DNA from: Ignavibacteriales bacterium
GTDB lineage: Bacteria > Bacteroidota > Ignavibacteria > UBA10030
Direction: 5' to 3'
Assembly (NCBI GenBank): GCA_026390575.1
Contig: JAPLFR010000009.1
Span: forward strand, 62,001 to 126,000
DNA length: 64,000 bases
The notes beneath the pieces were generated by a model, which made no database searches, had not been told where the DNA came from, and saw only the letters and a list, made by a program, of their open reading frames with translations. Made by a program: the position numbers and the translations under genes. This document shows positions 44,378-48,380 of the stretch, piece after piece (within the stretch, counting starts at the first letter, position 1; each line of letters opens with the position of its first letter).

Positions 44378-44803
44378 TTATTGGATGGCAAGATATTGTT
44401 TAATGATGGTGTCTGCATATGTCAAACCGGGATTCCAAGTTGTGACATTTCCCTGAGAATTCAGCAGCACAATCGTTGGTACGGTCATCACGTTCATATG
44501 CTTTGCAAGCGCCTGTTCTTCAAATGCGTTCAGTTTTTGTACTTCCAATGTCTTTCCAGATTGATGTAAGACAGCTTGCGCCCGCTCGATCTGCCGTTCC
44601 TGAAGTTTGCATTGGGAACAATCAGATGTCCAGAAGTACAAAAGTACCGGTTTGTCCTTTTCAATATTCATGGATAATTGTTGTTTGCGGGAACGCAAGC
44701 GTAACTTCCATTCGCTGTAAGCGCCAAATGATTTAACAACGAGAATGAATGCAAGAAATATTTCGGACGATAAGAGAATTCGCTGAATGATTATTTGAGT
44801 CAT
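44378..44803 (-). CDS. Membrane-anchored thioredoxin-like protein
   Basis: 141 aa. N-terminal helix (residues ~5-27) then a thioredoxin fold with Cys-Ser-Gln-Cys (in SDCSQCKLQE) and a cis-Pro in TVPTIVLLN. The domain probably reduces disulfides at the membrane. It lies 12 bases past the DUF4395 gene, a common partner. Confidence 0.85.
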   Translation of the reverse strand: MTQIIIQRILLSSEIFLAFILVVKSFGAYSEWKLRLRSRKQQLSMNIEKDKPVLLYFWTSDCSQCKLQERQIERAQAVLHQSGKTLEVQKLNAFEEQALAKHMNVMTVPTIVLLNSQGNVTTWNPGLTYADTIIKQYLAIQ

Positions 44804-44815
44804 ATTATTGTACTA

Positions 44816-45265
44816 TTATTGTGATGGAATGCGGAACCCCGGCACTCCGAGTTTCTTCAACTGGTAATAAACGAAACAGCCAGCGCAAAATCCGAAGATG
44901 AGGTTTGCCGCCGCGAGTGCGATAACGATCCAAGTGAATATCCATCCGAGAAGAGGTGATCCGGTGTACAGTAACAAACTGCCGATGCCAAGTACGATTC
45001 CGCCTAACAGCTGTGCAAACTCATGCGGAGTCGAAATGTCTTCTATTGGATTCGGTTTTAATAATTTCAGCGGTTTGATCACATGCTTATATGTAAGCTT
45101 GAAAAGTGCAAAGTTCGAGTTGAGCGAACCCGCTATGAGCACCGCCGCGACAAAAGAGGGTAGAATCGGCTGGTTGAGAATAAAGCCGAGCAGTGCAAGC
45201 GTTATAATCGATATCTGGTTAAATTTCAGAGCGCTATGATCGAGTACCTGTCGTGATGTATCCAT
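44816..45265 (-). CDS. DUF4395 membrane protein
   Basis: 149 aa from ATG 45265, chosen because GGAG lies eight bases upstream; a start at 45301 would add 12 residues. Several hydrophobic helices and the end CAGCFVYYQLKKLGVPGF fit DUF4395. These proteins are usually linked with thioredoxin or sulfurtransferase genes, as here. Function unknown, probably redox or sulfur handling. Confidence 0.82.
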   Translation of the reverse strand: MDTSRQVLDHSALKFNQISIITLALLGFILNQPILPSFVAAVLIAGSLNSNFALFKLTYKHVIKPLKLLKPNPIEDISTPHEFAQLLGGIVLGIGSLLLYTGSPLLGWIFTWIVIALAAANLIFGFCAGCFVYYQLKKLGVPGFRIPSQ

Positions 45266-45331
45266 AAATTTTCTCCGAATATATTTATTTCCATTCCTCA
45301 AGTCGAAAGAGAGTCACACTCCCGACCATAA

Positions 45332-45441: not shown

Positions 45442-46356
45442 CTACGCCGGGAATAGTCCATCAACGGAAAGATACCGTTCACCTGTATCGTAATTGAATG
45501 TCAGGATTCTGCCGCCCGGTTTTAGTTCGGGAAGTTTCTTCGCGACCGCTGCCAAGGAAGCACCTGTAGAAACTCCGACGAGAATTCCCTCTTCACGTGC
45601 GGCGCGCTGTGCATATTCGTACGCTTCCTCTTTTGTAATTTGAATAGCGCCATCGATGGACTGGACGTGTAGGTTTTTCGGAATAAAACCCGCACCAATT
45701 CCCTGTATCGGATGGGGCGAAGGTTTGCCGCCACTGATCACAGGCGAAGCCGCAGGCTCTACGGCATAGACTTTCAAACCTTTGTACACCTTTTTCAATT
45801 CTTCCGCTACTGCAGTAATATGACCGCCGGTGCCGACGCCGGTGATGATGATGTCAATACCTTGCGGAAAATCCGCTAAAATTTCTTTTGCCGTCGTACG
45901 CCGATGAACTTCTATATTGGCTTCGTTTTCAAATTGCTGAGGAACCCATGCCTTGGGAAGTGAAGCGGCAAGTTCCTTCGCACGTTCAATTGCACCTGTC
46001 ATACCTTTTTCGCGCGGTGTGAGATCGAATTGTGCTCCGTAAGCTGCCATTAAACGGCGGCGCTCAACGGAAAACGATTCCGGCATCACAAGGATGAGTT
46101 TATATTTCTTCACAGCGGCAACAAGCGCCAATCCAATTCCAGTGTTGCCGGAGGTTGGTTCGACAATGACCGTATCCGGGTTTAACAGTCCGCGCCGTTC
46201 AGCGTCTTCTATCATCGAGAGTGCAATACGGTCTTTGATGCTACCACCCGGATTGCTGCGTTCAAGTTTTATCCAGACTTCTTTATCCCCGAACAAACGA
46301 TTGATGCGAACGTGAGGCGTTCTGCCGATAGTTTCAAGAATATTTAAAGCTTTCAT
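45442..46356 (-). CDS. cysK: Cysteine synthase A
   Basis: 304 aa PLP enzyme. PLP lysine in [37 protein letters not shown] and [10 protein letters not shown] are the O-acetylserine sulfhydrylase signatures. Makes cysteine from O-acetylserine and sulfide. It follows metY by 242 bases of repeat, so it may or may not share the metY transcript. Confidence 0.94.
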
Positions 46357-46421: not shown

Positions 46422-46557
46422 GCGTCACGAACCCCCGCCTGCATGACTGCCAGCCCGCTTCGCATTCTGGCGGGCATCAGCAGTCGGGCAGGATTTTGTG
46501 ACGCTCAGTCGCTGAAAAACAATTCATTTTTGGTGTCATGGTACGGACCGTGACACC
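46422..46557. repeat. Palindromic cluster between metY and cysK
   Basis: Arms GCGTCAC (46422-46428) and GTGACGC (46498-46504) enclose CCTGC/GCAGG and GCCCGC/GCGGGC words. Next to it GGTGTCATGGT and ACCGTGACACC (46532-46557) form an 11-bp hairpin. It lies 42 bases past the metY stop but has no T-run on either side. Confidence 0.6.
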
Positions 46558-46598: not shown

Positions 46599-47924
<1,326 letters not shown>

Positions 47925-48002
47925 CTACTAGTGGTATAGGATGATTGTTTGTTGATATCAAATTATTTCACCTGAGGTTGAAAGATGGGGGGGCTTTAAA
48001 TG

Positions 48003-48037
48003 AAAAAACCCCTTCCAGGAATTTTCCAGAAGAGGTT
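48003..48037 (-). terminator. Terminator 2 in the metY leader
   Basis: On the minus strand AACCTCTTCTGG (48026-48037) pairs with CCTGGAAGGGGTT (48007-48019) with some G-T pairs, followed by T6 (48003-48008). It stands about 90 bases upstream of the metY ATG. Confidence 0.8.
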
Positions 48038-48039
48038 AT

Positions 48040-48087
48040 AAAAAAAACCGCCTCATCTCATCATTCCCTCAACCGCAACGGGCGATT
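48040..48087 (-). terminator. Terminator 1 / antiterminator switch in the metY leader
   Basis: AATCGCC (48081-48087) can pair with GGCGGTT (48046-48052) directly before a T8 tract (48040-48047). The same bases can instead pair as CAATCGC with GCGGTTG (48070-48076) in a hairpin extended by CCC/GGG. These two folds exclude each other, as needed for attenuation. Confidence 0.6.
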
Positions 48088-48148
48088 GGGGGTCAGGTGT
48101 CATCGGGTTTGAACCCTCGACCTTATCTCTGAGGTGATGCGTTTTATC

Positions 48149-48313
48149 TTACAGTGAACAGGCCGATGAATTACCGTTATCCAACATCGTTGCGTGGAGT
48201 TGCGATAAGCAACTACAACAACAGCGACAACACCTGCCAGCTGTTCTATCGAACGCCTGGGCTATGATGGCTTCGCGAAAAATAATCGAAGATGTTGTAT
48301 TTGAGTTTATCAT
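48149..48313 (-). CDS. Cys-rich leader peptide of the metY attenuator (54 codons)
   Basis: ATG 48313 opens a 54-codon frame ending at TAA 48149. Residues 28-35 are Cys-Cys-Arg-Cys-Cys-Cys-Ser-Cys: six cysteines in eight codons. The run is followed at once by an AGTTGC/GCAACT hairpin. A promoter sits 39 bases upstream of the start. AAGGAG at 48337-48342 is 23 bases from the ATG and lies inside a small AGGAGC/GCTCCT hairpin, so initiation may be weak or regulated. Ribosome stalling here when Cys-tRNA is uncharged would alter folding of the terminators before metY. Not a normal protein gene; inferred regulatory ORF. Confidence 0.7.
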   Translation of the reverse strand: MINSNTTSSIIFREAIIAQAFDRTAGRCCRCCCSCLSQLHATMLDNGNSSACSL

Positions 48314-48351
48314 CGGTTTTTCTAGGAGCGTTCTTGCTCCTTCTTCACTTT

Positions 48352-48380
48352 AGTATAATACATGGAACTGAATTTGTCAA
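48352..48380 (-). promoter_or_regulatory. Near-consensus sigma-70 promoter of the metY leader
   Basis: TTGACA (48375-48380), 17-base spacer, TATACT (48352-48357) on the minus strand. It predicts a start near 48345, about 32 bases before the leader peptide ATG. Confidence 0.85.

Follow-up and report, generated by a model that had tools for sequence, protein, structure and literature searches.

The metY-cysK operon and its leader

The DNA analyzed here (the window, 64,000 nucleotides) is part of contig 9 of the 3.8-Mb genome of an Ignavibacteriales bacterium. Its minus strand carries metY (46599 to 47912; PF01053, TIGR01326), encoding an O-acetylhomoserine/O-acetylserine sulfhydrylase, and cysK (45442 to 46356; TIGR01139, above cut-off), encoding cysteine synthase A. 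Genes for a DUF4395 protein (44816 to 45301) and a thioredoxin-like protein (44378 to 44803), both identified by domain matches on the same strand, are putative members of the same operon. As cysK adjoins metY, the presumably cotranscribed operon makes cysteine, and its composition points to cysteine control rather than to control by methionine only. An inverted repeat, GGTGTCACGGTCCGTACCATGACACC, lies between metY and cysK (46532 to 46557), and a similar string is found upstream of metY in locus L018. On the other side, the metY leader is adjoined by a divergent gene for a fatty acid desaturase (PF03405; 48488 to 49519, plus strand).

The leader begins with a sigma-70-like promoter, TTGACA-N17-TATACT (minus strand, 48380 to 48352), with 11 of 12 matches. 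Promoter-like sites are not per se above chance (1 found, against a shuffle mean of 1.9). In an alignment of five leaders, from the window and the relatives G004, G007, G003, and G006, TTGAC is invariant, and the −10 element is clear in all except G003, where it is less so. Downstream, an ORF of 54 codons, MINSNTTSSIIFREAIIAQAFDRTAGRCCRCCCSCLSQLHATMLDNGNSSACSL, runs from an ATG at 48313 to a stop codon at 48151 to 48149 and has a counterpart in each of the four relatives. There is no Shine-Dalgarno sequence immediately 5′ of this ATG, AAGGAG being located ∼25 nucleotides upstream; G007 has an in-frame ATG closely 3′ of AAGGAG, where the window reads ACG. The ORF contains the run CCRCCCSC (TGT TGT CGC TGT TGT TGT AGT TGC; 48232 to 48209), in which 6 of 8 codons are Cys codons, i.e., the leader ORF codon enrichment expected of a trp-type attenuator. 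Promoter, frame, and two downstream U-tracts had all been proposed in a sequence-only reading of this DNA, and their coordinates are correct. That reading also placed a hairpin just after the Cys run; the hairpin (1:2; GTTGC-TTATC-GCAAC, 48213 to 48199) exists but overlaps the end of the run.

Several segments capable of alternative pairing follow. The final codons of the ORF contain a proposed switch strand, TTCATCGGCCT (48170 to 48160), which could pair with GATGA (48104 to 48100) and AGGTC (48123 to 48119). The start region, CCGAUGA, can also pair with the switch strand, exactly in three of the five leaders, with one mismatch in G006 and with two in G003 as aligned, a pairing that might represent a no-translation state. 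Predicted folds contain a helix, P1, between its 5′ strand CGCATCACCTC (48141 to 48131) and 48059 to 48049 and, in agreement with the five-leader alignment, a hairpin, P4, formed by CCCAATCGC..GCGGTTGAGGG (48090 to 48066). CGTTGCG within P4 (48080 to 48074) is also able to pair with CGCAACG of the ORF (48194 to 48188). The 3′ strand of P1, GAGATGAGGCGG, which is also the predicted antiterminator strand, is followed by eight T residues (48059 to 48040 in total, T8 at 48047 to 48040). The last element before metY is terminator 2, AACCTCTTCTGG..CCTGGAAGGGGTT with T6 (48037 to 48003), at the position occupied by the terminator in S-box metY leaders.

Of the two terminators initially proposed, that ending in T6 (hairpin, 48037 to 48007; U-tract, 48008 to 48003) is a standard hairpin terminator; this predicted intrinsic terminator stands between the leader ORF and metY and is conserved in four relatives. 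No simple hairpin terminator was found at the T8 site by a terminator search of the region. The stem there would be either P1, closing a multibranch fold, or AATCGCC paired with GGCGGTT, and AATCGC also pairs with GCGGTT as the predicted hairpin P4. The T tract at this site comprises eight residues in the window and G004, seven in G007, and TTTT in G006 and is absent in G003.

Descent of the leader RNA from an S-box

Comparison with related genomes indicates that the RNA 3′ of the Cys ORF is a decayed S-box (SAM-I) riboswitch (48139 to 48049, minus strand), in which P1, a P2 segment, and P4 are kept and P3, with the SAM-pocket stretch, is deleted. A covariance model (CM), R1, was built by aligning 24 intact S-boxes from the metY upstream regions of related genomes and searched against 99 sources including the window (545 kb), with a rough, short calibration. 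It matched the window at 48139 to 48049 with 30.3 bits (E value, 3.9e-5), G007 with 25.3 bits, and G004 with 19.5 bits. All 65 listed matches lie upstream of a metY on the same strand, and the lowest of them (L014, 16.6 bits) is the edge of an S-box confirmed in G022 by Rfam's own model. G003 scored 11.0 bits, at the noise of the same search (10.9 bits), and G006 scored below the noise; S-box ancestry in these two genomes is therefore suggested by position, terminator, and alignment only. DNA matches to the terminator 2 region are located directly 3′ of metY-leader S-boxes in G025 (E value, 2.7e-6) and, weakly, in G029 (E value, 0.005).

The 35 model positions with GCAACC..GGUGC, sequences of the P3 region that we take to be SAM-pocket contact residues, are reduced to 5 bases in the window and to 1 in G007, and in G004 their deletion is part of a more extensive shortening. 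No element anywhere in the window matched Rfam at gathering cut-offs. RF00162 scored the decayed element at 13.8 bits, far below its curated cut-off of 44.4 bits, and by that test the element is not a member of the S-box family, with which it shares P1, the P2 segment, P4, and the terminator/antiterminator layout. Two other leader families were considered and rejected: L10_leader gave a weak match (E value, 0.14; 23.2 of 44 bits) whose paired part is the last terminator only, and T-box models gave no gathering match in the window and none up to an E value of 10 between 47900 and 48500.

It is very unlikely that this RNA has remained a sensor of SAM or another metabolite, as a diverged S-box relative with a short ORF that is incidental or secondary. 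Such a role would be in keeping with the CM match and with the P2 segment with GAUGA and P4, which are well kept in G004 and G007 (identity, 0.87 to 0.95), but not with loss of the pocket stretch in the window, G004, and G007, with the additional loss of the old P2 segment in G006, with the low RF00162 score, or with retention of the Cys run in all five genomes.

The genomic context of metY also differs between Cys-only leaders and the others. A survey of 99 loci (L069 being dropped as a duplicate of L011, with some same-genome pairs remaining) extended 1.5 kb downstream of metY or to the end of the locus, if nearer. Within this distance, cysK comes after metY in four of the five loci with a Cys-only leader (in the fifth, G006, the contig ends at metY) and in none of the 94 others, a number of which are likewise cut short. 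A downstream metX is present in 13 of 13 loci with a Cys/Met leader, 27 of 46 with an S-box only, and 26 of 35 with neither; leaders are thus far from universal on metY-metX. MetX was named from L103, which passes NF001209 (433 bits; cut-off, 331), and L144, which falls just short (324 bits), other loci being assigned by tblastn to these two.

In a MetY tree, constructed by a quick method, the copies with Cys-only leaders (window, G004, G007, and G003) are sister to 12 S-box copies that include the second MetY of the same genome (SH-aLRT, 98); placement of the G006 copy (L028), on a long branch, is unsure. The simplest reading of this tree would be duplication followed by a change of leader, a direction that we infer. 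CM score and tree together argue for common descent of the element with S-boxes in the window, G007, and G004. The host genome retains two intact S-boxes, one of them before its second metY. The poly-Cys leader of G006 (L028, 1501 to 2733) is followed by a sulfhydrylase homologue so divergent (56% identical) that a replacement of the downstream gene might be suspected.

Conservation and predicted folding of the Cys leader

The Cys-rich short ORF recurs before a metY homologue in all four relatives in the alignment. DNA identity over the region is 88% in G004 and 79% in G007, and G006 and G003 match in part; no significant DNA match to the leader was found in G005 and G008, which belong to the same genus. 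Conservation is modular. Identities to G004, G007, G003, and G006, respectively, are 0.77, 0.51, 0.41, and 0.37 in the 5′ part of the ORF; 0.96, 0.88, 0.71, and 0.75 in the Cys run; 0.96, 0.89, 0.72, and 0.61 in the 3′ part; 0.92, 0.89, 0.86, and 0.94 in the T6 terminator; and 0.72, 0.46, 0.17, and 0.20 in the spacer to metY. The N-terminal half of the ORF and the spacer have therefore drifted, while the Cys run (6 or 7 Cys in every genome), ORF tail, P4, and last terminator are better kept, and all five leaders can be aligned over the P4 segment and over the T6 terminator. Covariation is little among only five sequences of this type. In the hairpin at the Cys run, one TA pair is replaced by CG in G007, a change in both strands of the stem; as aligned, two of the pairs are lost in G003, and the hairpin is gapped in G006.

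A functional small Cys-rich protein, e.g., one binding metal, in place of a leader peptide would account for an ORF that is intact in five genomes. We consider it highly improbable, since its N-terminal half falls to 0.37 to 0.51 identity in three of four relatives, with the DNA of the Cys run and 3′ part more similar, the peptide has no Pfam match, and comparable positions at other loci are taken by different Cys/Met peptides.

Chance was assessed in 95 metY upstream regions, which include a few same-genome or near-identical loci. A Cys/Met-rich short ORF scoring ≥4.5 is present in 16 of these regions and in none of 95 reverse complements or 950 dinucleotide shuffles; with the cut-off relaxed to 3, the regions are only slightly enriched (24 of 95, compared with 16 of the 95 reverse complements and 87 of the 950 shuffles). 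In the host genome, the pattern TGYTGYNNNTGYTGY has 43 matches. Among the 30 whose loci were examined (13 others were not), 9 have an in-frame start 5′ of the run, and of these the window's run alone is not overlapped by an open frame of >71 amino acids, the other eight being overlapped by frames of 157 to 1004 amino acids. The CCCCMMM codon pattern is narrow, with matches in 0 of 395 genomes phylum-wide, a sample from which known carriers are evidently absent. A single genome by itself could not have excluded chance Cys codons before an ordinary gene, with the S-box remnants as junk, but the empty shuffles, the conservation profile, and the occurrence of similar leaders before cysE-like genes (see below) make this scarcely credible. 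Taken as sequence evidence, these comparisons indicate that the regulatory leader is real.

How such a leader might switch was examined in predicted folds. Equilibrium folding at full length was uninformative because the last terminator forms at 0.98 to 1.00 in every state, so that any switch must be kinetic, and it was replaced by folding of transcripts truncated at the 5′ arm of the last terminator. With the switch strand UUCAUCGGCCU covered, mean P1 formation in the window, G004, and G007 is 0.58, 0.84, and 0.71 and that of the antiterminator is 0.09, 0.00, and 0.00. With a ribosome at the Cys run, the corresponding values are 0.03, 0.23, and 0.25 for P1 and 0.46, 0.61, and 0.32 for the antiterminator. 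The alternative helix in these folds, UCAUC/GAUGA and GGCCU/AGGUC, reuses the old P2. When the 3′ part of the ORF was shuffled 30 times, with the ribosome edge at the last Cys, mean antiterminator formation was 0.18, 0.02, and 0.01, compared with 0.48, 0.75, and 0.17 for the native sequences. Complementing either the switch strand or its partners in silico abolishes the antiterminator in all three genomes; swapping both partners of the switch helix did not restore it, one G-U pair not being kept by the swap.

The folding model is not general. G003 contradicts it, with antiterminator formation of 0.07 when stalled, 0.48 past the switch, and 0.42 with the 3′ part of the ORF shuffled, and G006 shows a weak response only. 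The sweep of ribosome positions is also uneven, P1 being favored at some positions of the leading edge 5′ of the switch. The exact helices are best regarded as a model that fits three close relatives, two of five genomes fitting poorly.

The sequence-only reading had proposed mutually exclusive folds of AATCGCC, in the first terminator or with GCGGTTG. These are exclusive on paper, but modeling favors, as the more likely switch strand, the ORF tail UUCAUCGGCCU in a helix with the old P2. A plain cysteine attenuator, in which S-box remains form a passive scaffold and switching is through CGCAACG/CGUUGCG (ORF/P4) or the AATCGCC choices, is a possible though less probable alternative. CGCAACG/CGUUGCG is exact in the alignment in the window, G004, G007, and G006, and the P4 segment is found in all five leaders; however, the folds that free the antiterminator strand use the UUCAUCGG pairing, while the rival pairing crosses P1 and is beyond the scoring of nested folding.

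We propose instead, as the probable interpretation, that the leader is a cysteine-responsive, ribosome-mediated transcription attenuator of metY-cysK assembled on the remains of a SAM-I riboswitch. The short Cys ORF would be translated by a ribosome as RNA polymerase proceeds along the leader. When Cys-tRNA is ample, the ribosome would pass the Cys run and cover the switch strand near the stop codon; the old riboswitch P1 would then form and sequester GAUGAGG, the antiterminator strand, and transcription would end at the S-box terminator (with the T8 site). When Cys-tRNA is scarce, the ribosome would stall at the Cys codons, and the exposed switch strand could pair with the old P2 (AGGUC and GAUGA), blocking P1; GAUGAGG would then pair with CCUCUUC in the terminator, and transcription would continue into the operon. 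Cys sensing is well supported by the comparative data; translation, stalling, termination, the direction of the response, and the exact helices are parts that we infer. The Cys codon attenuator originally suggested gains from conservation in relatives and from cysK in the operon, while its S-box origin, the metY-cysK operon, and the wider set of leaders had been missed.

Cys leaders in related genomes and known systems

Eleven other loci carry a Cys/Met-rich ORF (e.g., MCCCCMMMCMSSREDAA) upstream of an intact S-box before metY-metX (L074, L081, L084, L102, L103, L104, L108, L134, L139, L147, and L146). Nine of these ORFs pass the 4.5 cut-off; that of L147 was spotted by eye, and that of L146, ∼1.1 kb from metY, came from a scan of the sequence preceding its S-box. 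A hairpin followed by at least five T residues lies between ORF and S-box in 10 of the 11 loci, L084 having the hairpin without T5. Pairing of the ORF tail with the terminator 5′ arm was tested in 10 loci, L108 being omitted as near identical to L104. Its energy was reached by 0 to 28 of 500 mononucleotide shuffles in nine loci and by 70 of 500 in L084, and, when tails were compared with all ten arms, some paired best with the arm of another locus. The tail-arm pairing is changed on both sides in L102 (GGAGGG/CCCUCC) and L146 (CAGAGG/CCUCUG). Two further loci have a Cys/Met ORF near metY: in L148 it lies 3′ of the S-box, and L144 has no listed S-box. The combination of Cys/Met leader attenuators in tandem with intact S-boxes on metY-metX suggests that one transcript may integrate Cys-tRNA, Met-tRNA, and SAM.

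Cys leaders also precede cysteine biosynthesis genes at other loci. Among 21 cysK loci, a leader was examined in the 10 relatives with a cysE-like gene directly upstream of cysK (52 to 89% identical to that of the host) and in the host genome itself; five loci with 43 to 44% cysK identity were covered only by a scan for high-scoring Cys ORFs. The gene is named cysE-like because the best match of the host protein, TIGR01172 (cysE), scores 160 bits, below the cut-off of 210.65. An ORF with CCC or longer precedes the cysE-like gene in 7 of the 10 relatives (L213, L215, L227, L226, L225, L218, and L216), several with a terminator, compared with 8 of 2,000 mononucleotide shuffles. The corresponding leader of the host has CYC only, with no Cys run, giving 7 of 11 when the host is counted. 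That leader (L229, 2800 to 2990) retains GAGCTCGTC..GATGGGCTC, which resembles a terminator, together with the complementary sequence GACGAGC, as if it were losing its Cys run.

Cys codon leaders are already known in Actinobacteria and before cysS in Rhodobacterales, and what is unusual here is the origin. In mycobacteria, poly-Cys leaderless short ORFs are reported to act as cysteine-responsive attenuators (Canestrari 2020, cited in PMC13236596 and PMC9094748). On the strength of those citations, the two systems share a short ORF with a Cys run upstream of an operon and cysteine-responsive attenuation, but the mycobacterial ORFs are leaderless, whereas the leader in Ignavibacteria would use an intrinsic terminator platform derived from an S-box. 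Cys leader peptides before cys operons of Mycobacterium and P. acnes and before cbs of B. longum likewise have Cys codon runs near the stop codon and precede cysteine genes; for these, PMC1262725 reports a lack of conserved terminator hairpins and suggests Rho, in contrast to the terminator and S-box remnant of the window. The uORFC-8-2 motif upstream of cysS in Rhodobacterales, for which ribosome-mediated attenuation was proposed (PMC8632094), resembles the present leader in its short ORF with Cys codons and intrinsic terminator but differs in its gene, its alphaproteobacterial hosts, and its two tandem Cys codons, and the excerpts of that paper mention no riboswitch ancestry. The SAM-I riboswitch of Xanthomonas campestris, which also responds to uncharged initiator tRNA (PMC7270179), similarly couples a SAM-I platform to a tRNA-charging signal. 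Unlike the window element, it is SAM responsive and acts mainly on translation, and the excerpts of PMC7270179 mention no Cys leader peptide. Among the matches listed in a search of open-licence full-text literature, none described Cys leaders in Ignavibacteria, and none described either a Cys leader derived from an S-box or the tandem arrangement of Cys/Met leader and S-box.

Amino acid attenuators and riboswitches are usually seen as separate inventions, but this leader looks like a riboswitch that was remodeled into an attenuator. We suggest, with about even confidence, a natural sensor swap: an S-box metY was duplicated, and one copy joined cysK and lost its SAM aptamer, P1 and the terminator coming under a Cys leader whose tail pairs with the old P2, while elsewhere tandem metY-metX transcripts may integrate Cys-tRNA, Met-tRNA, and SAM. 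The unconverted sister metY, with its intact S-box in the same genome, serves as a control. The leaders point to possible cysteine attenuation of a few operons (metY-cysK, cysE-like/cysK, and metY-metX), and leader peptide control by cysteine becomes testable in Ignavibacteria.
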